A DNA stretch of 64,000 bases from Diadema setosum (lineage: Eukaryota > Echinodermata > Echinoidea > Diadematoida > Diadematidae): NCBI RefSeq assembly GCF_964275005.1, contig NC_092693.1, positions 27,457,173 to 27,521,172 on the forward strand. The letters are read 5' to 3'. Both the position numbers and the translations under genes were made by a program. Positions 122-59,100 of this stretch are shown here, piece after piece (the first letter of the stretch is position 1; every line of letters starts with the position of its first letter). The notes below the pieces were generated by a model. It was not told the DNA's origin. It saw only the letters and a program-made list of their open reading frames with translations, and ran no database searches.

Positions 122-3100
122 GCAAGTGCCATCTTGTAACTTTAGGGACTACAGTCAGTAATGGAGGTTTGAGAGTATTTTCCCCAGAGGGCCCCAGAAC
201 TCTGAAATCAAGGAATAGCAAAAAAAAGAAATAATAAAAAATCTTTTTCTCTAGAACCAGAAGTGATAACTATGGTAGTAGGTACATTTAAAAAGAAAGA
301 AAGAAAGAAAGAAATAGTCTGCAGAAATATGTGGAAGTTGAATTATCTGTGGGATCATTCCGAAACCGACTAACGGTTGATCACAGTGGCTAGTTATTTT
401 CTTCAAATTTTCTATGTGCTTGTAAATATCTGTAAATAAACTGTATTATAATGTAAATAGCACAGTCTGCAAGAATATTCAGCCTATTGAAGGAGGCAGA
501 CTTAATCAGAAGAAGAAGAAGAAGAATTTGCAATACTATGATGAGCCATAAACCCACTGTGTCTCTTGTTATGCCTCCGCCACGAAGTGGTGCCGGAGGC
601 ATTATGTTTTCGGGTTGTCCGTCCGTCCGTCCTTCCGTCCGTCCTTCCGTCCGTCCGTCCGTCCGTCCGTCCGTCCTTCCGTCCGTCCTTAATGAATTTT
701 GTGGACAAGGTAACTATCGAAACCTGTTGAGGTATCCTAATGAAACTTGGCATGTATGTGTATTAGGGGGTGAAGTTGTGCCTATCAACTTTTGGGTGCA
801 CATGCTCAAGGTCAAAGGTCAAAAGGTCAAGGTCAAATATATAAAATTTCACTATTTCCACCATATCTAGTGAATGCCTGAAGATATTTTCTTGAAACTT
901 AGTGTATACATGTATTACCCAATTGAGATTCTCTGGTGAAAGTTTGGGTCATGAGCTCAAAGGTCAAAGGTCAAAAGGTCAGGGTCAAATACATAAAATT
1001 TCACTATTTCCACCATATCTATTGAATGCCTGAAGAGATTTTCTTGAAACTTAGTGTATACATGTATTACCCAATTAAGATTCTCTGGTGAAAGTTTGGG
1101 TCATGAGGTCAAAGGTCAAAAGGTCAGGGTCAAATACATAAAATTTCACTGTTTCCACCATATCTATTGAATGCCTGAAGAGATTTTCTTGAAACTTAGT
1201 GTATACATGTATTACCCAATTAAGATTCTCTGGTGACAGTTTGAGTCATGAGGTCAAAGGTCAAAGGTCAAAAGGTAAAGTAAAAATATTAAAACTTCTT
1301 TTTTTTCTCCGTACCTTTGAAAATTGTTCAAGGTATCTTCATGGAACATAGTATATACATGTACTGACTGGAAGTGATTATCTAGAGAATGTAGGGTTCA
1401 TGGGGTCAAAGGTCAGGGGTCAAAGGTCAAGTGCAAGACTTCAAAATTTTACTATTACCCTCATATTTATGCAATGCCAGCAGGGTTATTTTTTTACACT
1501 TGGTGTATGCGTGTGTAACCTAATAGAAATTCTCTGGAAAGTTTTTTTTTTTTTCTCTTTTTGCCTCAAAGGTCAAAAGGTCAAAGATCAAGTGAAAGTG
1601 CTGAACTAACTTTTTCCTCCATATCTCGGAAGTGGCTCAAGTTACCTTGAATCTTAGTACATATTATGCATGTTCTACCTGAAAGTAATTATCTTATGAA
1701 TTTTAGGGTCAAGGGCCAGATGAAAATGGTAACAATTTACTATTCAATTCAGAAATTGCACTTTTTCTCCACACCTGTACCTTGAAAATTACTCAATGCC
1801 TAAATGTATGAATGGGTCAAAGTCAAGTTAGTCCTTAAATCCCTAGATACATGCTCTCCTATTCATCCAATTAAATCTACGTCAAGGAAGGTGAACATTC
1901 AACACATTTGTAACAAACTTGTCATTCCAATATTTTACCAATTTTGTGAAAATGTAATCACACAGTGTCCACATGTACTATCTAGACCTATTGGGAAAAT
2001 CATGCATTATGGCGGAGGCATACCAGTCGCCAAAGCGACATTTCTAGTTTAGTGTTGTTATGTGTTTATTGAATATTGGCGATGTCACTGACTGTATGAT
2101 TGTGTTGAGGCATGCAGTATACTGCAGCTTTATGTTTAGCAGTTCCTAATTTGTCAATTTTAGTATGTATATGGAAAACTGCAGTGCAATTTTTATCATG
2201 GATTACTCTGTCATCAAATGCATAAATAATCTATTTGAAAATAAGTATCAAGAAAAAATGTTTACCAAACATGTTTCATATGTCATGGCCAAACATGGTA
2301 GTGATTTTATTCAAAATATGACATTGTCATAGACTGTTCTGAAGTGAACAATGTAAGTCTGAAAAGGCATTGAGGAAAATCACAGGGCTGTCAAAACCTG
2401 ATTTTTGCATAGTGGGGAAAATATTTATGTGAGTTGCGGTATTTCTGTAATGGCTTTCTATTTCCAATTCTGCTCTGCTTATTCAGATCACATTTGAGAT
2501 TATGAGCATCATTGCTGTGCTAACCAATGTGGCACTGATGGCTCTGTCACCTGAGATCCAGTCCCTCTTCCCAGAGATGTCCACCACCAAGTACATCCTT
2601 CTCTTTGTGATAGTTGAGGTAAGGCATCCTTGTGAGAAAAACTAGCAAAGAAAATTAAAACTTTTTGTGGGCAATTTTGCAAAGGAGGAGGGCATGACTT
2701 CTTATAGGCACCATTGTCATTATATCCTTTAATGTCTAAAAGAGACTTTGATGACAGTAGCAATAACGATCAATGAGGACATCTGTAGTAAGAGTAATAA
2801 ATCCTTGTATGTGAAACTGTAACATCAATGTAATCATAACAATAAATCTTCATTTTGGTGGTTTGTGTAAATGAGACCATAATGAGGATGATTACTATGA
2901 TAGCATACAGTAATGTAACTAATCCATGGTGCTTGAGACAAAATTTTGTCTATGTAGATTTGTAGTATCAGTAATTAGCTTTGGTTTTTTTTTGATACTT
3001 GCCTTTTTATCTTTAGTAATTATAATGTTTTTATAAATCACCTGGAACTAGCTTGTCATAATGGTAATAACATTTAGCAGAAATGGAAGTATTTGATAGT

Positions 3101-4437
3101 AATTTCTTTTTCCCCCTCTGTTGTTCAGCACATCTTCCTTGCCTTCAAGGCAGCCATTGCCATCCTCATCCCAGATTTGCCCAAGTGGATGGAGGTTGAG
3201 CTTGCCAAGGAGGAGTTTGAATCTAGAAAGGCTCTGGCAGACAGGGTGAGTTTCTCTTCCTACCATTCCCCATTACCACCCAGCCCCTCCTCTTCCAGGA
3301 GCAGATGATCATGATTTTCTACGTCGGTTACTTCCCCTGCTGGAACCTCCATTTTGTGCCCTGTCTGAGGGATAACATGTTTTCGGCTCTTTATAGAGGA
3401 GCCAACACGATTGCACACAACATCGCTTAGCCAGACTCAGTAGGATAAACTTAAAACTTAAAGGGATTGTATAGTTTTGGTTGAGACCTAACTTCAGGTT
3501 TCTAGCATGTTTGGTGAGATAATGAGAAACCTCGTATGAAATGTGGAAGAACCTGTAATTCCAATAGGAATTCAACATTAATTTGATGAAAATTGGTTTT
3601 TAAATGGCTGAGATATCCAAAACGGAGCGAGCTAATAAAATGTGGGACCCACCTTTTATTACCTGTATGATTGCTTTGTTTTACTTTGTTTTTGGATGTC
3701 TCAGCCATTCCAAAACCGATTTTCATCAAAATAAATGCTGAATTCCTCTTAGAATGGTATGCTCGGCACTATTTCATAATTGGTTTCCTGGTATCTCACG
3801 AAAAATTAAAAGCCCTTTCCTCATCTCCACCAGTACTATATTATCCCTTTAATCCATTTGAATCCAAGGCAGATGTGCTGCTGACTGAGCCCCATCTCTG
3901 CCTCACGTTTTCCCGAGATGAGTACTGAAATAAAAATGAGGCCATTTGATGGATATTTTGAGCCTAGGGGATGCTACAGCTCTACCCAACCTTGTTCAAA
4001 CCTGTGTAAAATATCCATCATTGTTGCTCTTATTCTCAGGTACCCAAACCTCCTATGTATTCTGTACCCAATTGGCAATAAATAGATTTCTTGCTTGTGT
4101 AAGATCTAGTCAATATGATACCATGATAGGGTTTTTCATTGTAATATCTTACTTTTATCTTTTGCACTCCCTGCACTGCTATATTTTATTTTGAGAATGT
4201 GAAGGATGATCTCAGCAGAATGTATCCTAGCAACCACTGAATCACATCTATTAATCTCATACCTGGGGTCTCTCATCACCTGTTGCATCTTAATCCCTCT
4301 TGTTGAAACAGAAAGCTGCTGAGTTAACCCGTGAGCTGTCATTCAGCAATGACAAAGAGAAGACAGCCAGTATGGCCGAAGCCCGTATGGCCATACTTGC
4401 ATCCGAGGCAACGGATATCTACAGTCAGCCCCACTGA
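1..4437 (+). CDS. ANO10: Anoctamin-10 (TMEM16K) orthologue, C-terminal part, four exons
   Basis: Last four coding exons (1-121, 2487-2618, 3129-3245, 4312-4437); the 5' part is off the left edge. ANO10 is an ER-resident TMEM16 protein with calcium-regulated lipid scramblase activity. Exon 1 carries the TM8 signature NNVIEVRSDAFK, in which the E (codon 38-40) and D (50-52), four residues apart, match calcium-coordinating residues of TMEM16 proteins, followed by RPFG. Exon 2 has TFEIMSIIAVLTN and SPEIQSLFPE, close to human ANO10. Exon 3 encodes the last membrane helix and IPDLPKWMEVELAKEEFES. Exon 4 is a short hydrophilic tail ending in TGA. The short tail argues against ANO8, whose C terminus is very long. 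All junctions from exon 2 on are phase 0. The first intron uses a GC donor. Similarity was judged from memory of the family, not by search. Confidence 0.88.
610..690. repeat. GTCC microsatellite
   Basis: Repeated GTCC and TTCC units inside family A copy 1. The frames reading PSVRPSVR or its complement arise from it. Confidence 0.9.
808..1270 (+). promoter_or_regulatory. Cluster of DR1 motifs (AGGTCA spaced by one base) in family A
   Basis: AGGTCAAAGGTCA occurs at 809-821 and 961-973 and again near 1252-1270, with many single AGGTCA half-sites between. DR1 is the binding site type of RXR heterodimers, HNF4 and COUP-TF. Motif is seen; receptor use is inference. Confidence 0.5.
2487..2618 (+). 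CDS. ANO10: ANO10 exon b
   Basis: Forty-four codons between TTCAG and GTAAGG. Encodes a membrane helix with TFEIMSIIAVLTN, the loop SPEIQSLFPE, and the start of the next helix. Confidence 0.9.
3129..3245 (+). CDS. ANO10: ANO10 exon c
   Basis: Thirty-nine codons between TTCAG and GTGAGT. Encodes the end of the last helix and the cytosolic IPDLPKWMEVELAKEEFES segment. Confidence 0.9.
3458..3852. mobile_element. TTAA-flanked foldback MITE in the last ANO10 intron
   Basis: TTAA then AGGGATTGTATAG at the left and CTATATTATCCCT then TTAA at the right; arms of about 150 bases pair imperfectly (AACCGATTTTCATCAAA versus its complement). A partial copy lies at 34121-34342. Confidence 0.65.
4312..4437 (+). 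CDS. ANO10: ANO10 terminal exon
   Basis: After the AACAG acceptor, 41 codons of charged and Ala-rich tail and a TGA at 4435-4437. The frame continues exactly from exon c. Confidence 0.85.
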   Translation, partial: KAAELTRELSFSNDKEKTASMAEARMAILASEATDIYSQPH

Positions 4438-4816
4438 CCACCGACAAGGCTGTTAAGAGTGTTCAGGTCACTGCATCGTGTGGATGGCGGTACCACTGAG
4501 GGCAAAGCAAGCTGATTAAGGAATCTCATTGCAGTAGGGCTATATGTGCCTCCTGTGCAGTGTGAAGTCTGTGTCACTGTCATGTCAGTTTGAGTGTGCA
4601 CCCACATCGCAGCCTTGTGTGTGTGTTTTTTCTGTTTATTCATTATATGCACATATATTTATGTTTTTATACACTACAAATTTAGTTTATCGTACTGATT
4701 TATTGATAAAATATATCCTCTAAAAATATATACATGAATTGTTATATTTAGGTAGATATTAGATTTTAACCGGACTTAATTTCAATATATTGTAGATTCT
4801 GAATAGATGTAAATCT

Positions 4817-4822
4817 AATAAA
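4817..4822 (+). terminator. Candidate polyadenylation signal of ANO10
   Basis: AATAAA lies 380 bases after the ANO10 stop in AT-rich sequence, giving a plausible short 3' UTR. No cDNA evidence; other AATAAA motifs occur by chance in such DNA. Confidence 0.45.
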
Positions 4823-6084
4823 AATCAAGTAAAGGTAGGATGAAGAATTTTGGTTGTGTTTGATTTATTACACCTGTTTTCATTCTCAACCAAACATACT
4901 TGCATTGATGGTTATCTCAGCATGCTGCTCATTAGTGTGCTTACAGTAAAGTGGAAGACAATCCCAATAAAAATGAATGTAGTCCCCATTAAAGTATAGT
5001 GAGTAAGCCGTCAATATGACACAAAGGATGTATTTTCATACGCATGTATCAGTGATTCACAAGGTAATTGGCTTTGACCAACAATATTCCAGGATGCTTC
5101 CAGACGGAAATCAGCCATGGAGATGATGAATCTTACAGTAAGAAATTGAGATGATGACATGCCATCTTAGAAGCCAATTCAATGACTCGTTGTGATACGT
5201 GTACACTCATTGTAAGAGCACTATATAAGTACCCATATTGTATTGTATTGATTATAATCCCCAAGAGACAATTGCAATGTCAAAAGTATTACTGCCAGTT
5301 CAAGTAAAATGTTTTCAGACTACATTCATTACCAATTTTTGCAGCTGAGGGTCTGTACATAGTCTTGGTTCAGTCTAGGAAACAAATCTGTCTGACCATT
5401 AAAACATTCAGGCCTGTGTGCATTTGCTTGTTTGTTTTGTATTGTTTTTTTTTTTTTGGGGGGGGGGAGAGGGGAGTTGCTACATCGATCGTTTTGGATT
5501 GCAAGATTTTCAGCCCTGGTATATCATTAGCCTAAAATATCTGAAAGTGTGTGATAACATAAAACATGATAAAAGTAATCATTTTGTTTTCTTGCCACAC
5601 AGAGGACTTGGCTATGCATAAATAGCAATATATCCTCATGTATGACATGACTGCTATGATTAATTCAGAGACAGTGATAGGAAAGCCTGGGTAGAAGGAA
5701 ACAGATTCATGTAAAACTTATATTTACAACTCAAAACAATGCATAGCTGCTCAATCGATAGCGGTGACCATAGCATAAGCAATCATGACAAACTTCGTGG
5801 GCAGGTTAGTCCCTTGTCTGTGACCCAACCAGAGAGATATCTTTCATGTAAAGCAGGCAAGTTATATTCCACTCAGAGAGAATGAGATGCAGAATAGAAA
5901 ATAGGATTGCCATGGCAACCAGGACATATGGTCCAAGGAAAACTAGTAGCGAAGCTGTGTGATGAGAGTGTTCCATTTCACACGAAAAGGGAGTTTGATT
6001 ACATTGCACAGATGGTTCATTCATACGAGTGTATGGCACAATGTGACTAGTTGATATCATTTGGTGACTATTTGCTAGTTACCT

Positions 6085-6290
6085 GGGGCAAACCACGAGG
6101 AGTCGGCATCTTTCACCCGTTTTCGTGTGTAGGTGGGTAGGGGAACACTTCACCAGGTTAGCACCCTGCTCTTTGTGATACAAGTGGGATCTTTTACGTG
6201 TGTGAGTCATGGCTTTAAACTCACACACTGTACGGGGATGAGGAGACATCTGCGTTTTGAACCAAGTGGACTTTTCCGAGTTAGTTTGTT
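6085..6290 (-). mobile_element. Diverged SINE body fragment, same family as 45.7 kb
   Basis: On the - strand: GTAAAAGATCCCACTTGTATC followed by ACAAAGAGCAGGGTG, matching the SINE body at 45.9 kb. No tRNA head remains. Confidence 0.6.
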
Positions 6291-9200: not shown

Positions 9201-10610
9201 GCAAGCTTAAGGAAAGTCATTCATTTTTGGGTTTTTTTTCTTAGTGGAAAGAGTGCCTTAATTTACTGTATGATTAACACTAATCACAACTTTGATGTGA
9301 AAATGGGCATATGTAGACAGTGTTTTACTTTCTGTGCAACTTACTTGTCCATTATCAGGGATACATGTTTGTTTTGTTTTTTTGTTTTTTTTTTTTTGTA
9401 CAGTGAGTGTTGTAGACTTCTAAGACTAACTTTTGAGTAGCTGTCAAATTACCTCGTTTCATTTATGATGTAATGAAATATGATCAGTCAGTGTAGGTAC
9501 AGATGTACATGCTTTTTTTGTGGTATGGTACCATGTAGTTATTAATCGCATACAAGGTCATTTCATTTACTTGAATAATAACCAGGGTAGATAAAACAGT
9601 GTTCTTGTCTTGTGAAAAATTGGATGGTTGTTACTACTGGAAATTGATGAAAATCCAGCAGAATTCTTTATTTGATGAAATTAGCTGGTATGATCTAATA
9701 TAATGATGCATCACCATTGGGGTAAAGACCAGCTCAGTATAGATTTAGAAGACAAATTCTGTACAATTTGAGTGCATCAAAAGAATTGACAAAGTTGCAA
9801 CTCAATTTTGGAAATACTGTTTTGTAGCATGAAGGAAGTGGTGGTGAATAGTCTAGTGTTTTGTGTTTTCAGGAGACGGTATAGGTCTGCAGTAATCAAA
9901 TATTCCACTCTGTGTTATTAATGTCATCAACTCAGCAGGATTCATATTGTTGGTCAGTTTATTTTTACAAGATACTTATTAAGGTTGGGATATCAGCATT
10001 AAAGAAGACTAGTCTCTCAACACACTACCATTGTGCCCTGAAGTCTTTCATTCTCACAAGAAGATGACACTGTTAAAAATTGTGGTGGCTTAATATTGCA
10101 GAAAAAAATCCACTCCCAACATGTGAAAGTTTTGGAGAATTATAGGGCTTACCATTACTATGAAACAATATATCAATGAAATATCACCTTGCTAACAAAC
10201 TATCTACTGATTGGTTTATTTGAACATGACTGTCCATGGGAAATATCAAATATGATAAACTGACAATTTTTGACATTGTTTTAAAGCTTTGTATTTGTAA
10301 TACATCAGATAATCTGGTAGCTATGCAAGACCAAGCAGGGGCTCCAATCTACCAAACTGGAAATCCTTTTTGATACCAATACTACAAAAATGTTATGATG
10401 ATAATTGCCAGTACAGTAGTAATGGAAGTAATGGAATGAGAATGTTGTTGGTTCTTTCATTTAATGTTGTTGGTGTCATAGTGCTTGCTGCTGCTCCTTC
10501 AAATGAGGTAACTTGAAGTATATACTAGTTAAAAGAGGATAAAAGTGGTTTAAATTAATTATCCCCTCTGTTGTGTTCTGTTCACAATGAAATCTGATGT
10601 GGGGCACCTT

Positions 10611-10613
10611 ATC

Positions 10614-10650
<37 letters not shown>
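10611..10650. repeat. GT microsatellite
   Basis: About 16 GT units with one interruption. Confidence 0.95.
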
Positions 10651-13167
10651 TGTGTGGTCTCTTGAACAGCTTCAGTCTGGAATATTGTAGTGTTTCACTC
10701 CAGGCAAGTGGGGATACATTTCACACTGGGCACATGCCAATTTGTTCATATTTAAAATAAATGAAAAAGCACCCTCTTAAGGCTCTAGGGGTACCTTTGG
10801 GGTGAAGAATGCACCTGCCCATTCAGCACATTTCGGACCTGTATGTAGGCAAATAGTTTTCACATTATTAAAATAGGGAAATTTTAAATTATTTACACGT
10901 TTCCTCGATTGTTGTGTATGCACCTTTACACTACATGAAGCCTGATTTTTTACTTGCTAAACTGAATTTTTTTGTGGTATTCAATTTCAATTGGTTTATC
11001 GGATTTTTTTTTTTTTTCCAGCAACAAATAATGGAATATGCCTAGTTATCTTGAGCAATCTATCATATCCCCGGTTGAAGCATCTTACAAGAATGTATGT
11101 ATGTGTGTGTGTCTGTGTGTAAGTACGTATGTAAGTACACTTTATTTGTATTTGGTATGTATACAACCATGCTAATTGATGCTGGTTGAAATCCACTGAA
11201 CACCAGCATGTTAGTTGTGGTTACAGGAACACAACTGATTTTACTCAAACATGACTGTCAAGATATGATACAGCTGTATATCGATTTGAAAGACTGTTCC
11301 AAAAGCACAGCTTCTTCACATCGTATGAAACTAAGAAATAACACAAACCTTTCATTCGATCAGCATCTCTATGAAATTTTATTTAGTATATTACACAAAT
11401 ATACAGAATGATATTGCTTACAAGCTATACATATCTAAGAATGTGTGCCTTAAAGGCAGGAGCTCCCTTCTTCAATTTACTTTACTTGAACCCCCCCTTT
11501 TTTTTTTATTGTTTTGACTCTGGCCTCATACACACTGGAATACTCGGACACGACACTGCATGTCTTAATATGTGGATGTACTTTCTAGGTCCTTCCAATT
11601 CTGTGTTCCACACTCATAACCTGGTTACTATGTTACAAAGTTCCATCAAATGCATCAATTTAACCGTGGATCTTTGACCTCTACACCTGCAAGCAGCCTC
11701 ATATCACTATTTTCCTTTCTTTTCTGTCACATCACTGTACATGATTTGATTTCTTTCACTACAACTTGAGTAACTAACTTTACAGACACATTTTTGACAC
11801 AATATAACCTAGGCCTTTGACCCCTTGACATCAAATGAAGCAAGATCCAGGTGTCTTCAATTAACTGTTCAGGAATCATGATGTGTATACATGCTAGTAG
11901 TCTCTCTTCCAACCATCCTGTTAGTAATTCTCACCTGGTTTTGAAAAGAGAGCTCATACCGTCACACTTGCAGTAGTCTCATTGCCAACATGGTAAACCT
12001 TCTCATGTCATACATATCATTGATACAACTAACCTTACAGGCATAAATAGAATTTGAACAAACTGGAAGTTAGGTCAAGGTTTAAAGGTTAACCATTGCC
12101 TGTGTCAGCCATCACAAGCTTGAGACAAAGTCCTCAACTCAAACATCCAAAATTACTTTAGTGATGACCAACAAGCAAAATATCGACTATTATTCAATTG
12201 TACAGCAGGGAGTCCCAAAACAAAGGTTACACTAAATATTTGTTGCCTTGTCTGAAACTCTAAATGTGCCAACACATGAGATGTTAGCACACCAATGAAA
12301 GAAAGAAATGAAGCAAACCAAATATAAAACTGAACAAAATTGTATCATCTTACAAAACAGATTGGTGTCAAAGCTGGATAAAGCCATCACAGTTTCAGAC
12401 GACCATCTGATAGCGTACTGATAACGCATACAAAATACATCTGACAAGTGCAAATAAAACCCACTTTGTAACAAACTTGGGCATGGTGACAAAATTATCA
12501 ATATCGGTCAAGCTAAATACACTGTATTTCAGATAGGTGGCTCATACTTTCAACCATACCCTTTGGCCAAGCAACACACATACAGTAAATACTTCAGATG
12601 CAACTCATACTGTAGAAAGTCTCACCCCATTTCCAAGGTCAGCAACACTAGTGATGGCACCCACTCAGCAGTCAATTTTGGCTGAAGTGATATTTCATGG
12701 TTTCTCAGGTGACATCAACAATACATAGTCAAAGATGCAAACAGCACTGCACCTGGATTGATGTCTAAGATGAATCACTAAATGCCAAAGTTTTGAGACT
12801 CCTACCTATTTCAGAGCTGGCAAGTCTCCATGATTCTGCAGGAGGCTCTCTAAAAGCACAGATATTTCCTCATTTTCTGAGAATAGAAATGTGTCCCTGG
12901 TTTGGAAATCTATCTGCCCATAGTAATGTAGAAAACCCACTGGTGTCTCCCTGAGTGTTCACTGGCACCTCCCTGATTCAGATGTAGGAATGTTGGCAGC
13001 TCTGCTACTTAAGTACAGCAGGCAGTATGAAGTGTACCAACAGGAAAAGGCTACTAGATTCAATGACCTGTATGCCTAGAAACTGTGTGCTACTGAGAGA
13101 ATCAAGCCTAGGGATCTCCCTCAGGGCTATCCCTGAATTCAAGAAATTGATTAACCTCTGCAGTCAA

Positions 13168-14445: not shown

Positions 14446-36834
<22,389 letters not shown>

Positions 36835-38277: not shown

Positions 38278-39998
38278 AAGTGGCGTATCTAGGGGGGAGG
38301 GGCAAGAGGGGCACGTGCCCCGGGCGCCACTCCTTGGGGGCGCAAAAAAACGCAAAAAAAAAACGAAGAAGAAGAAGAAAAAAAAAAGGAAAAAGAAAAG
38401 AAGAAGAAGAAGAGGAAAAAAAAAAAAAAAAAACTCGCCCGGAAGGGGGGAGGGAGAATGGTGGGGGGGGGGGGGGGGGCAGAAAACCAAATCAAACAAG
38501 ATAAAAACTAAACATGATGATGACGCGGACAAAATGACAATGTTTATTGTGTTCACACAAAAATTCCATGTTCTGTGAGCTGAAATACAAAAATTTTCGG
38601 CTCGCTCGCTGCGCTCGCTTGCCAAAATTTATATAAAAAAGAAGGTAAGAACAAAACGTGATGATGACAAAATGACAGTGTCTATTGTGTTTACACATGT
38701 AATTTTATATTTAGCAGGCAAAATGTTTCACGGAGCAGCGGCTGCAATTTCTTTCATTCTGAAGCGATCGCCATTTGGATCAAAAGAAGGCGCCAACGGT
38801 TTCGAACATACGGGGGGGGGGGGGGGCGCAAAAAAAACCCCGAATCAAACAAGATAATAACAAATAAAACGTAATGATGACGCGGAAATATACAAATTTC
38901 GGCTCACTCGCTCGTACTAATTTAGATTATTTTTTCAAGTCCTCGGTTTATTGGTATAAATCGTTATCTATAAGGCCGTCACTATTATCTTGATTAGAAT
39001 TGTAAGATTTAATAAGCAAAAAATGACAAGAGTTTCATGATTTGTAAGCTGAAATACAAAAATTTTCGGCTCGCTCGCTGCGCTCGCTCGCCAAAATTTG
39101 TATAAAAAAAGAGAAGAAGATAAGAACAAAACGTGACGACGACGCGGACAAAATGACAATATTGTGTTCACTCATGTCATTTTATATTTAGCAGGAAAAA
39201 TGTTACACGGAGCAGCGTCTGCAATTCCATTCGTTCTGGAGCGATCGCCGATTTTATCAAAAGAGGAGGACAACGGTTTCGAACATATACGGGGGAGGGG
39301 GGCGCAAAAAAAAATCAAAGAAGATAAGAAAAAAAAAACCACGTAATGATGACGCAGAAATATACAAATTTCGGCTCACTCGCTCGTACTAATTTAGAGT
39401 ATTTTTTCAAGTCCTCACTTTGTTGGTATAAATCGTTATCTATAAGGTTGTCACTATAAAGTGAGATTTAATAAGCAAAAAATGACAAGAATTCCATGTT
39501 TTGTAAGCTGAAATACAAATATTTTCGGCTCGCTCGCTGCGCTCGCTCGCCAAAATTTATATTAAAAAAGATAAGAACAATACGTGATGATGACGAGGAC
39601 ATATACAAATTTCAGCTCACTCGCGCGTACTAATGTAGAGTATTTTTTAAAGTCCTCAGTTTTTGGGTATAAATCGTTATCTACATTGTATAAGGCCGTC
39701 ACTATATCTTGTTTAGAATTGTAATATTTGGTAAGCAAAAAATGACGAGAATTCCATGTTTTGTAAGCTGAAATACAAAAATTTTCGGCTCGCTCGCTGC
39801 GCTCGCTCACCAAAATCTATCAAAATTCATTACATTTAAATCACCCTCAAAAGATCCCTTTTAAGTGCTTGGAAAAAGTATCATGTGGACCTTGTTTAAA
39901 GTCCCTACCGGGATGGGGTTGGGGTTGAACACTTTCAGAAATTAGGGGCGCAATTTTCGTGCTTGCCCCGGGCGCCGTTTTCCCTAGATACGCCACTG
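38278..39998. mobile_element. hAT-like non-autonomous element with 8-bp duplication
   Basis: The 8-base sequence ATAGTACG flanks both sides (38270-38277 and 39999-40006). Inverted ends (A/C)AGTGGCGTATCTAGGG. The interior holds several copies of AAAATTTTCGGCTCGCTCGC with GCGCTCGCT (near 38590, 39058, 39520, 39778) and long A/G runs. The Lys- and Phe-rich frames here are low complexity. Confidence 0.8.
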
Positions 39999-41624
39999 AT
40001 AGTACGCATGAGATTTTGAGATGACACACAGCCGCAGCGTCATTAATTATCATCATATAACCATAAACGTGACGATTTCGTGCGCATTGCAGGTCACTCC
40101 CTCGAGTAAGTTTAAGACCGCTTTTATAATGTCAGGCAGTGTCGATGTCAATCGCAATCTTTTTGCAGTCATTCAAATGGGACCAGCACAATAGGTGTAC
40201 AGACTTATGTCGAAGGTGTATTGCTATTCAGTATTCTCTTTTGTGTTTACTCTGTACTCGACGTCAACAAGACTGGAGCGTACATGGAGGGAGTGGATCA
40301 AGTTTTCAGGACTAGTGCGCGGTGTTTGTATATGGGTGAACAAAATATACTGAAGTCTTTTACGGCGGACTGGTGTCATTTTCAACGATCGAGTTAGTGT
40401 ACGTTCTGATTCCCACAAGGGTATCGCTTGATCGGATAGAAACTTTCAACTTTGATTGTTGCTGTTGTTGGTGGTGATTACCCATTTCTCGAATTGTTAC
40501 GGTTTGCAGCAAAGGCATAAAGGGAAGTTGGATGATACCGCAACCTCGGTGTTTCCTATTGCATTGTTGCAGTTTTTGATTAAACGTTGAATGTGACGTT
40601 GAATGGTAACGCATTCAGATACTATTGTGTGTACAATCGTAATCATTGGGACTGATGACTTAGAGCATCGTGGTAATGATACACCTGTTCTGGTTCCATC
40701 TCGGAGCACAAGCCTTGATACGTAAGTAATCCGTCGCCATAGATCATGCGACTGAGCCAAACACGCTGTTCAAATAGTTTCCCTAATTTTATGAGCCTTC
40801 GAGCAAAGTGTAGAGTCGCACTGTAGACTACACACAAAAAAGAAAGATAAAGACGCACGTAAAATAACCATAATGTTTCGAGCCTATAATAGTATCTATC
40901 GCTATATGAAAATCATATTATGCAATTAAGGAAGATAATTTACAAAGAATATGTTGGATGGATTGTATCACTCTGTCACTCTTAAGAAACTATTTTGACA
41001 TTGCATGCTAACATAGTGTGTTACTGTATTGTATACAATATCTATGTAAATAATAGATGTGCAATACATATAATATACATGATATTATACAATATGGCAG
41101 CAGGGAGCTCGAACTCATAAACATGAATGGCGGTGGTGGTGGCTTAACTTAAAAAATGTATAATATTGAAAAGAGAAGGACACCAGTGGGATGGACGTAC
41201 AACCCAGCTAGGTCTATAGCTGTATAGCCTATAGCTACATAAAGACCCTTCTGAAAACTTTCGGGCCTTGGTCACAATTAAATGACAACGACAAAAAAAA
41301 AAAAAGTTAATAGGTGATTTTGCACTTCAGAGGTATAGGTTTATATCCAGGTTGCATGAAAGTTTACGGGTATAGCACACACATACACTACAAACTTAAA
41401 CAAAGTCTTAAACAGCATGATAAGACTACAAATTAGAATTAATGTGCACAACCAACTTATACGTGTTCGGTAGTATAGACACGTATTATAATGTATAGAC
41501 ACGGATACAAGAAATTATTATCATAATCATCATTACTATTATCATGGTAAATATTTTACTACTGTAGGTTGCCATTGCATGAGTTCCATATAGGCCTACA
41601 ACACTGAAACCGAAGAGGGACAAA

Positions 41625-44234: not shown

Positions 44235-44407
44235 CAACGTAACACGTTCTTCCTTGGCTGTCAGTCCAAGACTGTCAGAAACTAGAAATCAATTGGTAAA
44301 ATTCAGTGACCATTTTGTATCAGAATATATAAGCATATTAAGTATTTGGAATTGTGTCTGGATAATACTATGATTCGAAGCTGAAAAGACGGTTTCATCT
44401 GTAAACA

Positions 44408-48431: not shown

Positions 48432-50810
48432 ACTAGAGATTGTAATTTGTCATCACTGACAAATTAAGGTGATCCGATTTTTTTTTAAATCAATGATTCA
48501 AGTCCTGATCGAAATAGGCATGACCATGCAGGTTTCATCTGTGTTCAGAGACATAACATTGGCCGTGTGATGTTTGGATTCTCATTTAGAAAAGGGAGTC
48601 ATATCTGCCATCTTTGGTACCAAATCTGTATACACTATAACGAAGATACAGCAACAAGTACATATGACCTTTGACCCCACTTTGCACAACCTAGATGGCA
48701 TCTGAGCCAAAAGTGGTTATTTTGTGAAATGATTCTTGTAACATGATCTTTGCGTGTGCAAAATATGGGAAAGATAAGACATGTATTCACCAAGATACAG
48801 GATGAAACATTTGTGACCTTTGACCCTAATTTACATACCCAAGATGTTGTCCGATCAAGTAGTTGTTATTTTATGAAATAATGTACGTGACATTAACTAA
48901 ACATGTGCAAAATATGGGGGTGATAGGGGCTGTTTTTCTTGAGTTATTGCAAAGGAAGTTGCAGAAACATAGAAATATCTCAATACAACTGTACATCGAA
49001 GATAAGCTTTAATTTCAACCAAGTATTTTAACATGATCCCGACATCAAATGAAAAAACAAAGGGCGCGTAACAAAAGCACAAAGTCCCAGTTACAACATA
49101 TTAAAATCTGAGAAAAAATCATCCAAGGGTAAGTGAGCTAGTGCTCGATAAAGACAATCATGTCAATTTTCACATCTAGAAAAATTCCCTCCCTAGAGAT
49201 AATACGTCATAACGAAGAAACAGAAAGAAGTACATATGACCTTTTGACCCCACTTTGCACAGACAAGATGGCATCTGAGCAATTAGTTGTTATTTTGTGA
49301 AATGATCCTTGTAACATGGTCTTTACGTGTGCAAAATATTGGAAAGAAAAGACATGTATTTACCAAGATACAAAATGAAACACTTATGACTTTGACCCTA
49401 ATTTACATACCCAAGATGGCGTCTGATCAAATAGTTGTTATTTTATGAAATAATGTTCGTGACATGAACTAATCATGTGCAAAATTTGGTGGTGATAGGG
49501 TATGTTTTTCTTGAGTTATTGCACAGAAAGTTGCAGAAAAAAAGAAATATTTCAATACATCGAAGATAAGCTTTAATTTCAAGCAAGTTTTTTGACGTAA
49601 TCCCGACATCGTTTGAAAAAACGACGGGCACTCTCACGATAGCCCAAAGTATCAGCTACTACATATTAAAATCTTGGAGAAATTCACCGAAGCATAAGTG
49701 AGCTAGTGCTCGATAAAGATAGTCATGTCAATTTTCATTTCCATAAAAATTGCACTCCCATAGAGATTACACGTAAACTGGCCAAATTTGACAAGGTTAC
49801 CTTCAATCCATTTTTACGAGGTGATGCCGTCATTCAATCAAAATTGTGTTATTGTATGAATGAAAGATGATTAAATAAGCTACAACATACTGAAATTTGG
49901 GTGAAAATTAGCAAAGGATAAGTGAGATACGCTCGAGTGAATTTGAAATTTGATGACGTCATTTTGAAAATTTACTTTTTTTACTTTATTAAGAAATTTG
50001 ATATCTTTAAATCATTTTGTCAGCATAACAAACCTATGAAATGACATGTAAAACTCATCAGCTTTCAGAATTTGCCAAGAAAAAGGGGGGTCACCGTTCA
50101 TCCTGACGAGTAAAATCCGATTTAAAATTGACGGTTTTTTGGCATAGTTGCACTGTGTATCCCCATTGACGCACGCGCGGAATTTTGAGTTTGACGGGCC
50201 CGTATGACGTCATATTGAGTCGGATTGGCTTGAAACTTGCGAGAAATATTCCTTGACATTTTGGAGATCCGATCCGTGTGAAAAAACTAAAAATTTCTAT
50301 TGCATACTAGCTGTGCGTGCGAATATGTGCGCGCGCGTACGCGTCCGTCCAATTTTTTCAATTTTTCAAAAAATGCTCCAAATGATCTGAAACGTGTGCA
50401 AAAAATTTTTGAGCTCGATTTGAGCATACAAATATTTCAACGCGCGCGTACGCGCGCGTTGTAAGATAAATATGATTTTTTTAGAATATGAGTAGAACCC
50501 GCTTGACTTGAAATATATGTGACGTAAATTTCATTGAAAAATTCCATTCCATTAATAAGATATGCATGAAAATGTGTTTTCATATAATGACGTCATAGTG
50601 ACGTCACGGTCGACTGATCACTGTAATTTTACTTGCGCTGTCGTCTTTGCGACATGATACATATATGGTATAAGTTTGACATTAATAGGCAATGCACTCT
50701 CTGAGCTAACTCTTGCACAACTTTTGCGGAGAAATAAAGAAATAAAGAAAGAAGAATAAAGAATCAGTACAGATACAGAAGGTGATCCGAGAGGATACTC
50801 GGATCACCTA
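48432..50810 (+). mobile_element. Repeat family B, 2.4 kb, same architecture as family A
   Basis: Begins ACTAGAGAT (48432-48440), hairpin AATTTGTC/GACAAATT (48444-48465), arm AGGTGATCCGA (48467-48477). The interior has two similar paragraphs (about 48600-49130 and 49190-49730) with TGACCTTTGACCC motifs, then purine-rich simple sequence (50725-50765). Ends in a palindrome AGGTGATCCGAG / CTCGGATCACCT (50780-50809). No coding frame. Confidence 0.7.
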
Positions 50811-52998
50811 ATTATTCTTCTTGCAACTGGGACAACAGCATTTGATGTGGTGTGGATGATGAAAATACATTGTACAATTATCTCACAACAGTTTTTTCTT
50901 CTGCTCTAAATCGATGCATTAAAGATGGGCCATCCCTTTTGCATTCCTTCCAAAATAGCACAAAAAATGATATATACCACCAGAATGACAAGACTTTTGT
51001 AAAGCTATAACATTTCTGTGATATCTGAAGGTTTTGCTGTTAGAATTCAAATAATGCACCAACTTAATACTCACCGAGAATAGCGCTGGCTCAATGGGTC
51101 AGCGAACACAAGCTGGGATAAAAAATCACCTGACCCAAAATGGCTGTCCGAGCCACGAGAGCTTCCGATCAGTGCCGAATGGACGCACACTCACAGCGCG
51201 CATGCGCATGAAGAGAAGCCAAAAGAGCCACGCGTCTTCTGGCCTCTCTCCTCCAATCACCGCAGCTCGCGGTACAATGTTTGTGTATGATGCATACACA
51301 CACATACACACACACACACACACACGTGTCTCAGTGGCAACACTGTCCCACACGTCTATGGATAGCACTGCAGTCTGGCATTGCGCAATTGCATGCACAA
51401 ATTCCATTCGTTCGGAAGAGTTACGCAATAACGTACCATTAGGGGTGACGATCGTCCGACTTTAACTACACAAGTGCATCACACAGGTCTGTAAAACTAG
51501 ACTAGTAGTTTAGATTTGTAATTTTTTTCGTAGTACCAAACAATTATTCAAATCTTAATGGTCAATTTAACTCAACAAATAAAGACCCTCTTGACTTCAG
51601 AATTTACAGGAGATTTCCAAATAGTGTTCTCTTCAATACCCAAGTGTTCTCACCAAATTTTCACAAATTTGCATGCAAAAGGGATGACCTATCTTTAAAA
51701 GCACAAATGAACTCCAGAGCAGTAGCTTTCAGTTGTAAGCTGTAAAGTGCATGGCATGTAATGCTGTGACACACAACTTCTTTATTAAAAAACAAACAAA
51801 AGAAACAAACAAAAAACATTAGTCTTCCTTTAAAGACCTGGTAGCATAGGGATACCATGGAGTGGGAAGGCTGGCCTGACTTGGATATGCATGTATTTGA
51901 GAATCCTCGTAATGAATGGTGCACAGCTCTGTCACTGATCTCTATATAAACACATGTACACACTAAGTCATAGAATCTCAGCTGGAGTTGACCATTACCA
52001 CTGAATGAACACTATGAAGCACATATTCACTGATGGGTGCTATTTGCTTTGTTTGGTGTTTTTTTTTTTCGAATGTTCCCTGGGGAGCAACGAATGTAGA
52101 TAATTAAATTGGGCCACCCATGAATCCCCATGCCACCAATAAAACAGCCAGAGATGACCCTCCTGAGCTTCCTAAGGGATCACAATAACATGTTGAAGCT
52201 GACCAAATTTTCATCAGTCTGGTGGAATATAAAATGTTGTAAGCATCCTGTCCAGCATACAACCACACTGCCTACAGTACTGCCAACACAGTGGCTCCAA
52301 TTGATATTTCAGTGTGAGTTTTCAACCTTTAATTAACCATGTTCCATTCACAACCATTATAACTACCTTGGTCATCATCCTTGACCATACATCTGACTCA
52401 AGCACTCAAGCACTAGACCTAAGTCAATAATGTCTGCAAGTTCCATGGTTCATCAACTCCATATCAACCTGTTGTCTTGCTTAGGGAGAGTCATGCACTG
52501 TCAAATATACCTGTAGGTGACAAGATTTAGACAGAAAAATACAGTAGAATGGACAAAGATACAGGGCAGGGAGAGTGTTTTGAGCATCTTGGGTGTATAC
52601 GGCATGGTAACACCAAGGTTCTGAACATTTTAACATTTTCCCCTTTCCCTTTACCTGGTCTCATGTAGAAAGGTCTCAGATAATTAGATACTTTCTGAAA
52701 TGGCTGGATTTCATACTCTGCATGCTGCTAGTCTTACATAAATCCTCACTTATACACAGACTCTGGCATAGGCAAAGTGCACACAAAAAACACCCCAAAA
52801 TAAGTGTCCAGTGTCTGAGGGAGGTGAGGGGACTTTCTCCCTGAATCCATCATCATGAGAACGAAGGCACAAATTTATGTAGTTTTCAGAATCAAGCCAT
52901 GTCTTAAAACTTGACAGAAGTCCTGCGGCTTGCGAAAACCCACTGATCTTGCACAGAGCCATCTAGCTTCTCGGAGCTGCCGGCATATGTGAGTGAGC
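50811..52998. other. Intergenic flank, includes presumed RPRD1 3' UTR
   Basis: Downstream of RPRD1 on its strand. A candidate AATAAA on the - strand lies at 51786-51781, which would imply a 1.2-kb 3' UTR; not proven. Also holds the CpG patch near 51.2 kb. Confidence 0.4.
51130..51290. promoter_or_regulatory. CpG-rich promoter-like patch without a recognised gene
   Basis: Contains GCGCATGCGC (51198-51207, an NRF1-type palindrome), CCAATCA (51253-51259) and AAAATGGCTG (about 51137, YY1-like) in a short CpG-rich island in AT-rich DNA. No coding exon recognised on either side within 1.5 kb. Confidence 0.35.
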
Positions 52999-53151
52999 TC
53001 AGCTGTCGATGGAGAAGAGATCCCCTGCAGAGGGGAGTGGTGCCAGCCCTCCCGTGACGTCTGGCAAGAGGGACAAGTCTGGCAGGTTCTGTATGTGGGA
53101 GGTGAGTTCCTTCCTCACTGTGGTCACCCTAGTTAGGCGGTCCTTGTATTC
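52999..53151 (-). CDS. RPRD1: RPRD1 exon 7 (terminal)
   Basis: Fifty codons and TGA at 53001-52999. Contains RVTTVRKELTSHIQNLPDLS and GGLAPLPSAGDLFS, highly conserved; acceptor CCAG. Confidence 0.95.
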   Translation of the reverse strand, partial: EYKDRLTRVTTVRKELTSHIQNLPDLSLLPDVTGGLAPLPSAGDLFSIDS

Positions 53152-56100
53152 CTGGCATGACAGAAAAATACATGCATACAAATGTTAGACCAGTTTCTCC
53201 TTAGGCAGACTGCAGCTTTTAGAGTGTTACCTGTTGACAAGTTACACTATTTTGGTATTTGGGAGAGTTTCTGCTTTTACATAGTATAATATATAACAGC
53301 GTATCACTAGACTGCATTCTCATGTCAGTACAAATAGGATTCTTGTTAATTTTGTCAAAGACCAGACATATAGGACAGAAATTTTTGCTGCGAATGAAAC
53401 TAGAAAATTACCAACCATTCATGTTATATTACATTTCATTCATTTCTGTTTTAATGGGGCTTAGCTCTCACACTGCACCTTAATGGAAGACAAATTTCTT
53501 GTTCTGAATTTTAAGTATTGTCAACATATATCACAATTAACACTCACAGGCAAATCTCTATGGAATATTTGTCAGGCAAAATGTTATAATATAGCCATGA
53601 TTTCAATGCTGTAATATGATTACCACAAAGGTTTAAGCTGATCTACATCTACAGAAAGCTGTCTTTAGCTGGGGCAACCACAGTCATACGAGTTCAGCGC
53701 ACTCCCGTTATAACGAACACAATTATAATGAAATTCTGCTGACAACGAAATAAAAATTCATGCTGCAACATTATCTGTTCTATGTTCTTCCTTGTTTATT
53801 TGTTCGGTTATAGCAAAATTTCGATATAACGAAAGAAGACTACCCATCCTGATGACTTTGTTATAACAGGAGTCCACTGTATGGGAAAATGGGAGGCACT
53901 GGATTGGATTGATCCTCCTCCTCACCTCCAGTTTTTGCAGGGATGTTTTCAGGTGCATCTGCTGTCCAAGCCGGTAGTTCTTCAGCATCTTCATCACTGC
54001 CTCTCTCTGAATCATCTCAGCCGACAACCTGCTATTATACTCTGACAGCATGGATACCGCTTCATTGACAACGGAGGACAACTCTTCAGCAGCTTCCTTA
54101 TCTGTGTGGATGACAATGACAAATATTCCTGTTATATGTATAGACAAAAATCCCTTCCTTGATCAAATTAATCATGTACTGTACACTCCATATATTTAGC
54201 AAGTCAATTTTTTTTTCTCTAATTGAGGCTTCCCAACAATTTCACTCGTGGTAAAATTAGCAGCGATCATGAAGTACAGTAATGAATGGAAAATGAAAGC
54301 ATGCATGTCGCATTCATGTTGGGATCAGGGTTATTATTTTTATGTGTTGTAAAATTCATGAATGGCACCTGGCTACCAAAATTCACAAAAATCGAAAAAC
54401 ATGGCGTAAACAGTTCATGACCTGCCATAGGCACTAGAAATGTCATGAATGCATCCTAGCATTCACTCTGAATGCATCCTAGCATTCACTCTGATAAAGT
54501 GCTCCCTGACTCAAAATAGTCAGCAAAAAAGAGGTACTCTGAAAGATAACTTTAAACAACCCTGAAACCCATATATCCATTTATCATCACAAGCAATACT
54601 GTATGTATACATTCAAATGCAAGTTGCAACATGCCTTTGAAACATTCATTATAACACGTCATCATCATTATTGTAATGCCATCAAAATCACTAACATGAT
54701 TTCTATCTTAGTATGTGATGCATCATTATCAGTACAGGCATTAGCTTTTTATTGTAATTTTTTTTTTTTTTTTAATCAGTCTTTAAAATCTTCAACATAT
54801 TATAAAATAGGCAAAAAACAAGCAAAGAGAAAAGGGAATGTAATGCCCATTTCAGATACGAGAGTGTTTAAATGCCCAAACCGATGAGCAAGGTAATACC
54901 TTTGATTTTTTCTAGTAAGCTGATGTCCTGTACTTCAGGTGGAAGCTTGGCAATCTTCTCTCTCACAGCTGCATCACTGGATGCTGAATTCTCCAGTTCC
55001 CTCAAGGCCTGTGCTAGCTCCTCTGGCTACAAGTAAAGTAGTCATGATAGGTTTGTTTACACATGTTGTGATTACTATGATCATGGGATTATTGAGGTAG
55101 TCACTCTAGATATGGAGGTTCCTACACAACACAGTATTTATGCCATTTTAAAAATGTCAACTCAAAACAAAAACACAAAGAAAAACAACAAATTATGAAC
55201 TTTGGTTGACTGAAAGACAATATGGTATAGACACAAAGTCATTGCAAATATGAGTGACATTTTGATATGTAGTTTTATGTATTTGACTCTTCTATACCAT
55301 TCCCATGGCACTTGGAATTGCTTATAATTAAAGGGGTGAATGAGTACTGATGTGGGGAAACACCAGCCCTGATGTCAAAAAGTGAATTGGTGTCTCTTTA
55401 CCTCTGGTATATCATCAATCTCTACCAGCTGGTCATCTTCTTCCTCCAGAATGCGCTGCATGTCCTCCACCTCCATCTTGGGTTTCTTTGAAGGGACTAC
55501 ATCTTCCTTCTCTGTTTCAGAGTTATTAGGTCGCTGGGGTGGGGTTGTGGAGGCATCTTCTGCCACGTCCTGCTCTGGGACATCTTCATCGTTTTCTGAG
55601 AAAAGACCAAGAAACACCAATATTTTGAATATACACAATGGGTTAGAATACTAATTTCAAAGCCAAAAATAGCATCAACACTAATAGAGGCAATAGCAAT
55701 AAATATCAAGAACAGATAATACCCTGCATAATTACAAGTGATTACAAGACTTGTCCATAGCACTTTGTTGAGTATAAATGAGACTAAAGTGTAAGACCCT
55801 ATAATCTAAGTGCACTAGTTTAAAAGGCTTCAGTGAGCAAAGTCTTTCATTCTCACAAGTCATTGACTTATGCCTCATTTTCTGAATGCTGCAAGACATT
55901 TTTTAATCATTTTTGTTAACTAGAAACATAGCAAACTTGGGGGGGGGGGGTGGGGGCATAGTGAAAATTTGATGCAAAAAGTCTGCATATGCTCCACGAT
56001 TGACTTTGTACAATGCATGATCGCATCTCAGGTGAGCAAAAAATGGACCTTGATGCATATTGTAGTCATTTCACCTAGCAATTGCAGACTACCAATTTTT

Positions 56101-59100
56101 GCCTTTGCTTAATGTATATAACAAACTTTGTTTTCATGAAAACATGGCAATTAAAGGGGATGGCTTCCTGATCAGTGGGAATCAGTGGGAATGCTGGGGG
56201 ATGATTGTTCCAATTCTTGTGGATTCATTTAAGAGTACATTATATATCTATTGTGTGAAAATAATTTGCTTCACAACGGTCTCATATTCAAGTAATGTGC
56301 AGTTTAGTGCCCCGTCACTGTACAGGCATGCTAACCTGGAAACATTAAACTGCACATCTTGAATATGAGACCATTCTCAATCAAATAATTTTCACACAAC
56401 AAAAGATATATAATGTACTCTTAAATTAATCCCACAGGGATTGGAACAATCATCCCCCAGCATTCCCACTGATTCCCACTGATCAGTTACTAGCCATCCC
56501 CTTTAAGGTATATTGGGTGTGTCACACGATTGATATGTGAACACATTTTGTACAAACAAATAATACAGATAACAGCACAGAATTGGTTGTGATAGATAAT
56601 TCTCAATTTCTCAACGAATGGTCAAGTGCTTTCTAAAGGATAATATCATGGCGGAGCCAATTACTGCAATTACATATAAATTTTGTTTACTGAATGGAGT
56701 TCACAGAAATTACAGAATCATCAAATCATTTCATAATATTTATTCAGCACACAGATGAGGCCAGATGCAAAAAGTGCCATGAATGTCGACAAGTTTTTCC
56801 ATACGAGCTGTTGGGATTATACGTATTACACATGATAAATACATAACAAAATGAACTTCCTGGTTAGAATCCTTGTAAAAAATGCCCAAAATAATTATCT
56901 TGTATCCAACTAATAAATTGTCATACAAGCAGTAACTTCTCTTGAAGGACATTCAAACAGCCAGTAATTCCTCATTTGCATGGCAAAAAAGCATCTGGAA
57001 AGGAACATATTTTTACCCTTTGGTAATCTAAAACAAGGAAAAGTAGAAATTACGTGGTGTGTAATATATGTCCCCGCCGGAAGTAGCATTTTGTAGCAAA
57101 ATGTACAATATAGGTCAAAAATCAAGGTCAAAGGTCAAAGAAGTCAAAGGTCAAAATTTTGTGTAGAAGTTTTGAAGCCCTCACCTAGTGCCATCACATA
57201 AAGCAAACGGAATCGAAATCGGGTTAGAAATGGCGAAGGAATAGCATTTTGTAGCCAATGTACATAATAGGTCAAAAATCAAGGTCAAAGGTCAAAGAAG
57301 TCAAAGGTCAAAATTCTGTGTAGAAGTTTTGAAGCCCTCACCTAGTGCCATCACTTAAAGCAAACGGAATCGAAATCAGGTTAGAAATGGCGAAGGAGTA
57401 GCATTTTGTAGCAAAATGTACAATATAGGTAAAAAGTCAAGGTCAAAGGTCAAAGAAGTCAAAGGTCAAAATTCTGTGTACAAGTTTTGAAGCCCTCACC
57501 TAGTGCTATCACTTAAAGCAAGCGGAATCAAAATCGGGTTAGAAATGGCGAAGGGGTAGCATTTTGTAGCCAAGATACAATATAGGTCAAAAATCAAGGT
57601 CAAAGGTCAAAGAACTCAGTGGTCAAAATTCTGTGTAGAAGTTTTGAAGCCCTCACCTAGTGCCATCACATAAAGCAAACGGAATCGGAATCGGGTTAGA
57701 AATGGCGAAGGAGTAGCATTTTGTAGCAAAATGTACAATATAGGTCAAAAATCAAGGTCAAAGGTCAAAGAAGTCAAAGGTCAAAATTCTGTGTAGAAGT
57801 TTTGAAGCCCTCACCTAGTGCCATCACATAAAGCAAACGGAATCGAAATCGGGTTAGAAATGGCGAAGGAGTAGCATTTTGAAGCAAAATGTACAATATA
57901 GGTCAAAGGTCAAGGTCAAAGGTCACAACTGAAATTCTGTGTACAATTTTCAAAGCTCCCATGAAGTGCTATCATATAAAGCAAACAGAATCAAAATTGG
58001 CTCTTTAATAACAGAGAAGTAGCAAATTGAACATTTTGATCACACACGGACGCACACACACACGTACGGAGCCCGTTTCATAGTCCCCTGCCCGAACTCG
58101 TTCGGCGGGGACAAAAATCCATGGCATCATCCTTGGCAATATCCAACATACCTGTATTTTCTGACTCGATTTTCTTCAGGACCTCCTTATCAAACACACT
58201 CCTGTCTTTCCAGACCTTTAAGACCTTTTGCAATGCAGCATACGTCTTTTCGTCAGTTGTGGTACTATGATTATCAATAACAAAAGGCCAAAGTATCAAT
58301 GGTAATCATTATTTTTGATGAATTCAAAGGTACATACATTTTCTTGATAAATGAAAGCAAATCAAATTATGCAATAAATTCACTAAATTTAATATTTACA
58401 CTCAACAAAGATGTTGGTCTCTGACTGTTTTGACAGTACATTCCAGTATTAGACTTACAAGTGTGATTATCACTTGTGTAAAAGGCTCAAATGATCTATC
58501 ACACATAAATAAGTACCTTATAAAATCAAGAATACAGTTACAATTTAGTACAAAAGTAAATAAGTGTCTTGATGTGAGTGCATACAACACACCAGCAGGC
58601 AATTTTGTTGTGATTTTAAAACAAAGAAAGAAAAAAATATTCATGTATAAACACATACATTTCTTAAAGAAACATGTGAGCCCCCCAAAACATTGTAAAC
58701 AGATGATTGTTTTTACAAAGTGTAAGTAAAGGCAAAAGTAAATATAACAAAACAATTAGAAAATGAGTGAAAGATCATTTCTACAGCTTTATGTTTTACA
58801 TTGGTATGGCTTTTCATGGGACGAAGCTTACTCATAAATGTGTCCAAACGATGCTGGCATGACCACAGCAAACTCTCGGTTGAACTCTGGTCCTTTCTTC
58901 TTGCTGTTCTGCACGACATCATTGGCCAGGTAAACAAATCCCAGCTTTCGTGAAGGCTTTGCTGGGAAAGAGACAAAAGATAAGGCAAAATCATGACCTT
59001 TGTTGAAAAATTAATTCTGAATGAATCTCATTCAATAAATTGTAACTTTTAAAGAGCAAGTTGAAAAGAATTAAACCACAAATGTACACATTATTAGAGA

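Follow-up and report, generated by a model that had tools for sequence, protein, structure and literature searches.

Probable non-autonomous Helentron families with a common terminal plan in the sea urchin Diadema setosum, and a likely coding partner for one of them

Four insertions and their common plan

The stretch of DNA analyzed here, referred to as the window, comprises 64,000 nucleotides of the sea urchin Diadema setosum (RefSeq assembly GCF_964275005.1, contig NC_092693.1, forward strand, 27,457,173 to 27,521,172) and starts at C9:27457173 in a host genome of 912.7 Mb and 102 contigs. It contains four insertions of three repeat families, namely A (copies A1 and A2), B and C, whose positions and parts are listed in Table 1. 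In element sense, all three families display the same order: an arm of 10-12 bp, its complement a few bases on, a simple tract, repeated paragraphs, the arm's complement a second time (the distal arm), a small hairpin and finally a short tail. We consider these families, with a probability of approximately 95%, to be non-autonomous Helentron/Helitron2 elements (HINEs) inserted in T-rich DNA. The families are new; their architecture is known from HINEs (PMC4067079, PMC7492417) and from Helitron2 (PMC3627910), all statements about cited papers in this text being limited to the available parts of those papers.

The distal arm, or 3′ subterminal inverted repeat (subTIR), is set back from the 3′ end by 25 bp in A, 34 bp in B and 36 bp in C, and the stability of the hairpin beyond it was −5.5, −7.7 and −0.8 kcal/mol, respectively (DNA folding). 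The central repeats of B, which are too diverged for the repeat finder, were recognized by eye. Over ungapped columns, A1 and A2 agree at 1025 of 1106 positions (92.7%), and their flanks are dissimilar. Interior similarity was no better than that of shuffles for A-B and B-C, and exceeded shuffles for A-C solely via arrays of GGTCA. Rfam and tRNA scans of the window yielded no match.

An earlier note on this DNA, made from the letters alone, had described families that differ in sequence and have one terminal plan. This description is borne out, as nothing is common to them beyond the GGTCA repeats, and the arms, the paired 5′ arm, the distal arm and the small hairpin are all real. The order of parts given there also stands, whereas the direction has to be reversed: the end with the arm palindrome is the 5′ end and the "ACTAGAAAT" end is the 3′ end (...ATTTCTAG, then T). 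Similarly, the extents of A1, A2 and B were correct as tabulated, whereas C needs extension to 57034-58112; the proposed terminus A(C/G)TAGA(A/G)AT fits A, B and, roughly and from one copy, a further family D (see below), whereas the true end of C lies 8 bp further out, at CTTG followed by TT. The 9-mer ASTAGARAT alone is weak evidence, with eight matches in the window compared to 2.7 ± 1.8 expected and one of 100 shuffles reaching eight. Half of these matches sit at A1, A2, B and C. The stretches around the matches at 13167 and 54433 were inspected and contain no recognizable element, and those at 44281 and 62170 were viewed as 60-base lines only. The 13167 stretch has a marginal likeness to the 3′ end of A2 (score 28, against a shuffle maximum of 26).

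The specificity of the plan was assessed by scans and simulation. A window scan for an exact arm, arm complement and distal arm returned 14 rows, five of which also have the hairpin and CTAG and correspond to A1, A2 and B (three overlapping rows), the other nine being without hairpin or CTAG; simulated windows (n = 60) contained 0.03 rows each with the full plan including hairpin and CTAG. A looser scan, extended from the window to a further 200 kb taken from four sites elsewhere in this genome, gave seven rows (A1, A2, B, the new family D and three that were not accepted), compared to none in a simulation of 6 × 264 kb. Two of the three unaccepted rows reuse the hairpin of B or D, and the third lies at 33271-34906. 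C was missed by both plan scans because its 5′ stem is imperfect. Family D, a fourth HINE family, was found at C2:10039913-10041189 and ends in TTCTTCTAGT; its 3′ 18-mer has 83 exact copies in the genome. The sampled D copy possesses a GTCY-like microsatellite and is without the direct repeat 1 (DR1) motif discussed below, and the phrase AAACTTGGCA occurs both in its repeats and in family A.

Table 1. Probable HINE insertions in the window and their parts (window positions; the strand is that of element sense; a slash marks an element boundary)
Feature	Position	Strand	Remarks
HINE family A, copy 1 (A1)	570..2047	+	flanks TTGT/.../TT; boundary from 30 further genomic loci
A1 5′ hairpin: arm TATGCCTCCGCC and complement	570..602	+	−12.1 kcal/mol; 0/200 shuffles equally stable
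A1 GTCC microsatellite	617..688	+	repeat scan
A1 central repeats, 145/152 bp, carrying GGTCAAAGGTCA (DR1) clusters	804..1363	+	
A1 3′ arm GGCGGAGGCATA, hairpin GTCGC(CAAA)GCGAC, terminal ATTTCTAG	2011..2047	+	
HINE family A, copy 2 (A2)	28719..29841	-	flanks TTTT/.../TT
HINE family B	48433..50810	-	
B 5′ hairpin: arm AGGTGATCCGA and complement	50780..50810	-	−13.1 kcal/mol
B 3′ arm TCGGATCACCT, hairpin TAATTTGTCA..TGACAAATTA, terminal ATCTCTAG	48433..48477	-	
HINE family C	57034..58112	-	3′ terminus corrected to ...TTTTCCTTG/TT from 19 other copies; 5′ boundary from window copy only
C central repeats, 158 bp x 5.4, DR1 on the element's antisense strand	57082..57925	-	
C 5′ hairpin: arm GTCCCCGCCG and imperfect complement	58083..58112	-	−10.4 kcal/mol; 1/200 shuffles equally stable

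Genome copies and insertion sites

The 3′ 21-mer of A, which spans arm and hairpin, has 2,592 exact copies in the genome, and that of C has 20; B is represented by 1,460 exact 3′ 21-mers and 3,615 5′ hairpins, and all reversed controls gave 0. In a viral contig collection, no match to the A 21-mer was detected.

When copies were collected and their ends aligned, the boundaries of A and B coincided with the terminus proposed in the earlier note and that of C did not. For A, the sample consisted of the first 30 loci, four of which (L023-L026) form one array. The end is CTAG in 29 of the 30 loci, with TT next in 28, and the 5′ end was located in 20, every one of them preceded by TTTT; the 19 copies with both flanks show no target duplication, with 0-1 bp in common beyond the T runs. 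For B, CTCTAG forms the end in 19 of the 20 stretches fetched, followed by T in 19 and by TT in 17. On the 3′ side of C, similarity continues past the earlier terminus to CTTG in 17 of the 19 copies outside the window, with TT next in 16 of the 19. An empty site was provided by a B copy nested in another B (L069, L070), as the host halves align to three uninterrupted copies (the window copy, L061 and L064) with no gap at the junction and no duplication of the terminal inverted repeat (TIR) type. Insertion between T and T without duplication is observed on both sides for A, via the nested copy for B, and on the 3′ side only for C.

These boundaries bear on the possibility that the families are TIR-type miniature inverted-repeat transposable elements (MITEs) moved by a cut-and-paste transposase. 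The arms are indeed inverted repeats, and such elements were formerly classed as MITEs (PMC4067079); however, the absence of target duplication in the copies tested, the asymmetric positions of the arms, the restriction of hairpin plus CTAG to one end, and the 3′-to-5′ junctions described below make this explanation scarcely credible.

The array L023-L026 (C1:4749059-4750576) comprises an A copy possessing both ends, after which the A 3′ end recurs three times in steps of exactly 499 bp; the extra 3′ parts begin within an internal T run. It is perhaps a HINE that is becoming a small satellite.

Rep-helicase loci, concatemers and a possible mechanism

A genome search for a Rep-helicase element with the ends of these families, which the earlier note had suggested, led to loci with B ends. 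The Helitron_like_N profile has 49 genome matches, and 21 open frames of 3,276-3,517 amino acids were found, all of which combine Rep and a PIF1-type helicase in one frame in the order OTU-OTU-Rep-PIF1. A 197-amino-acid Rep piece matches Helraiser in PDB (E 3.8e-6), and its named relatives include sea cucumber, crinoid, mussels and fish. Four Rep loci were checked; each has B-type sequence at one or both ends, and in all four the Rep frame is antisense to the element. At the three full-length Rep loci on C1, a B 5′ end lies 14.1, 14.6 or 19.4 kb upstream on a consistent strand, and a B 3′ end lies downstream of the frame at C2:5691403 (11.9 kb) and C1:14829700 (12.7 kb). The B 3′ end that closes the element at C1:167206 is diverged, retaining the arm and hairpin stem and ending in TTCTAG, and the next B 5′ end follows it immediately. 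In addition, the final ~545 bp of B is found at two unlinked loci, where it borders, at the same point, sequence that is absent from the window B copy; a 28-base piece of this non-B sequence has three exact genome matches (one being the locus of origin), all in one orientation relative to a Rep match that lies 10.6, 10.7 or 30.3 kb away. A coding partner with B's own arms, about 28-33 kb in length, is thus very likely to exist. The values of 28 and 33 kb are distances between ends at two loci (C1:153146-180970 and C1:14816913-14849737); as the second locus lies in a dense B cluster, nested insertions may contribute to its value.

The partner also bears on a further proposal of the earlier note, namely that a single machinery mobilizes A, B and C via structure (hairpins, spacing and CTAG/T) and not via arm sequence. 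Families with unrelated arms do have a common plan and T-T target, and the three full-length C1 Rep loci all have B 5′ ends, with no listed A 3′ end within 30 kb (exact 21-mer, among the first 100 of the 2,592 places, a listing complete to C1:24.7 Mb). On the other hand, B's arms and about 545 bp of its 3′ end are present in the one partner found, as expected if arms are read; the arms common to B and its coding partner therefore speak against a machinery that reads structure instead of sequence, and subTIRs common to partner and HINE have been published (PMC4067079). Moreover, 28 of the 49 Rep matches lie outside the 21 long frames. The proposal as stated is not supported, and we regard it as unlikely. 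No exact C 3′ 21-mer (20 in the genome) lies within 300 kb of the 21 long Rep frames, and exact-word searches for A and C ends would miss diverged ends. Cross-mobilization of A and C may occur.

Features of the partner and of the termini also make it very improbable that the families are canonical Helitron1 elements. The terminal CTAG of A, B and D does agree with the CTRR end of Helitrons (PMC3627910, PMC5148889), and the distance from hairpin to terminus is 8 bases in A, 10 in B and 13 in D; however, there is no 5′-TC, a 5′ hairpin is present, insertion is T-T rather than A-T, and the partner frame has two OTU domains.

Same-strand clusters of B comprise 16 copies at C1:14789764-14879181 and 10 copies at C1:25316626-25364015. 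A 3′-to-5′ junction, CTCTAG joined to TTAGGTGATCCG, is present in four of the eight stretches picked in B clusters (L061, L062, L063 and L067) and in none of 12 others; in a fifth cluster stretch (L064) the junction is shortened, and a diverged form adjoins coding elements at L096 and L097. These concatemers support rolling-circle run-through, although they do not prove this mechanism, and joined-end circles have been reported for Helitron2 relatives in Fusarium (PMC5148889). B 5′ ends also occur in doublets or triplets 48-74 bp apart (L064, L069 and L095; e.g., C1:14861313, 14861371 and 14861430), as if elements had been inserted one after another in the T-rich tract adjoining the 5′ hairpin on its inner side, or copying had restarted there.

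A mechanism may be proposed for elements of the plan 5′-arm, arm-complement hairpin, simple tract, central tandem repeats, 3′ arm, hairpin and CTAG or CTTG-3′. A Rep-PIF1 protein would nick the T-rich 5′ boundary, the source of the enzyme for B very likely being the ~28-33 kb element with its 3,400-amino-acid OTU-OTU-Rep-PIF1 frame on the strand opposite to element sense. One strand would then be displaced and copied as a rolling circle, which the 3′ hairpin, followed by CTAG, would terminate. According to the model of Bao and Jurka, the 3′ arm would pair with the 5′ arm and open the 5′ hairpin when a round ends. Read-through past the end would yield the B concatemers.

Several observations weigh against the assignment to Helentron/Helitron2, or against parts of it. 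The CTAG end is absent from one of the 30 A loci and one of the 20 B stretches, A1 is preceded by TTGT instead of TTTT, and C has a weak 3′ hairpin and ends in CTTG, not CTAG. The empty-site junction has an adjacent T/A mismatch, and the neighboring pyrimidine tract varies by 4 bp between copies. With regard to the coding loci, no coding partner of A or C was found; no exact B 3′ end is nearby at C1:16950895 among those listed; the listed B 5′ ends do not extend to C2, the locus C2:5691403 included; and the 19.4-kb spacing was measured at C1:14829700 in a dense B cluster, where the 5′ end could be a neighbor's. The coding element could also be named Helitron2, as a C-terminal endonuclease domain defines Helentrons proper. 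Finally, no circle was observed, and unequal crossing-over could also enlarge the B concatemers.

The likeness to non-autonomous Helentrons (HINE/DINE), which the earlier note had pointed out, is upheld by the anatomy, T-T insertion without duplication, sharp boundaries, the empty site, head-to-tail junctions and Rep-helicase loci with B ends. Cg_HINE of Crassostrea gigas (PMC7492417) likewise has a 5′ subTIR of 11-12 bp with a complementary inverted repeat 1-12 bp later, a GTCY/GTCC microsatellite, satellite-like central repeats of 140-180 bp, a 3′ subTIR and a 3′ palindrome; it also has an oligo-T target without target site duplication (TSD), and several sequence-unrelated families are present in one genome. 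The oyster study was unable to link its HINEs to a coding element, whereas here coding loci have B's ends. HINE-Mo/DINE-1 and Helentrons (PMC4067079) have the same subTIRs, 3′ palindrome and T-T insertion with no TSD, and OTU domains (in some) and an antisense Rep frame (occasionally) are found among those Helentrons; different from them are the frame of ~3,400 amino acids with two OTU domains, its antisense orientation in four of four loci, and the distances of 28 and 33 kb between ends. In common with Helitron2 (PMC3627910, PMC5148889), there is a 5′ asymmetric terminal inverted repeat (ATIR) that forms a 5′ hairpin, a 3′ ATIR directly upstream of the 3′ hairpin and a T at the 5′ end, as well as joined ends as in Fusarium (PMC5148889); by contrast, three Chlamydomonas elements have TSDs of 7-19 bp (PMC3627910, PMC5148889), and none were seen here.

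DR1-type repeats, neighboring features and significance

A DR1-type repeat is the only interior sequence common to A, B and C. The four elements together contain 20 copies of the 12-mer GGTCAAAGGTCA (A1, 7; A2, 4; B, 2; C, 7), which is absent from the other 57,947 bases of the window, and the best A-B and B-C interior matches, of 15 and 18 bp, both contain it. GGTCA words outside the elements (84 in 57,378 bases) show no 7-bp spacing. We take the word AGGTCAAAGGTCA/GGTCAAAGGTCA to be the DR1 consensus of nuclear receptors of the HNF4/RXR type. In the genome, the 13-mer AGGTCAAAGGTCA has 42,065 sites compared to 40 for its reversed control, i.e., about a thousandfold excess. Among the first 100 sites listed, which come from one end of one contig and from the + strand only, 86 lie in clusters with a spacing of 140-162 bp (or double), and 30 are followed on their own strand, within 2.5 kb, by an exact A 3′ end. 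Although this period is HINE-like, a site in such an array need not belong to A, B or C. The 200-kb sample contains only two of the 12-mers, one beside an A 5′ end and the other in no recognized element.

One reading, which we offer tentatively and regard as doubtful in its entirety, is that the receptor-type word AGGTCAAAGGTCA sits in the central repeats of several Helentron families whose ends and interiors are unrelated, and that these families have spread most of the ~42,000 exact sites. Retention of the word would then be due to its binding by a host receptor (HNF4/RXR/COUP-TF class) that aids the elements, for instance through their opening in germ cells, and a large set of receptor sites would be transposon-borne. 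The main alternative, quite conceivable if still short of probable, is that A, B and C inherited an interior piece with GGTCAAAGGTCA from a common ancestor rather than recruiting receptor sites. In its favor, 34 bp of GGTCA array can be aligned between A and C, and replacement of central repeats between related flanks has been proposed for oyster HINEs (PMC7492417); however, the best A-B and B-C matches hold the motif with nothing else in common, and C has the motif in the opposite orientation.

The available parts of PMC7492417 contain no mention of a DR1-type repeat, which distinguishes the present families from Cg_HINE. A search of the available literature returned no paper connecting Helitrons with AGGTCAAAGGTCA or with nuclear receptor AGGTCA sites, and a wider search led to work on human Alu. 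As with Alu elements carrying HNF4-type sites (PMC3252374), a mobile element is predicted here to spread nuclear receptor sites; unlike Alu, which is a short interspersed element, it would be a rolling-circle element with the site in the central repeats of three families.

The window contains additional features. Probable exons of COG4 are located at 19520-30720 on the - strand (one of three matches being above the Pfam cut-off), and A2 lies between COG4 matches and is therefore probably intronic. Probable exon(s) of a CREPT-domain gene are present at 53758-54162 on the - strand, and a reverse transcriptase fragment at 59721-60110 on the + strand. At 22710-24490, a tandem array of 18 units of 71 bp has the palindrome TTGGTGGCC..GGCCACCAA at both ends and may be either a HINE whose subTIRs are palindromic or a DNA transposon of another kind. 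An element of ~810 bp at 16737-17549 has inverted ends TTAACCCTAAAAAGACT / AGTCTTTTTAGGGTTAA with long G and C runs adjoining, and a related start occurs at 24888. The stretch at 38278-40000, in which inverted ends AGTGGCGTATCTAGGG / CCCTAGATACGCCACT surround a 472-bp tandem repeat, is probably a DNA transposon.

Both the partner of B and the DR1 load would be unexpected to a specialist from the window alone. HINEs are often found without the source of their enzyme, and the combination of B with coding loci that have the same ends makes arm recognition directly testable. The excess of DR1 words, which in the listed sample are mostly found in arrays with a HINE-like period, makes this genome a test case for transposons that carry nuclear receptor sites.

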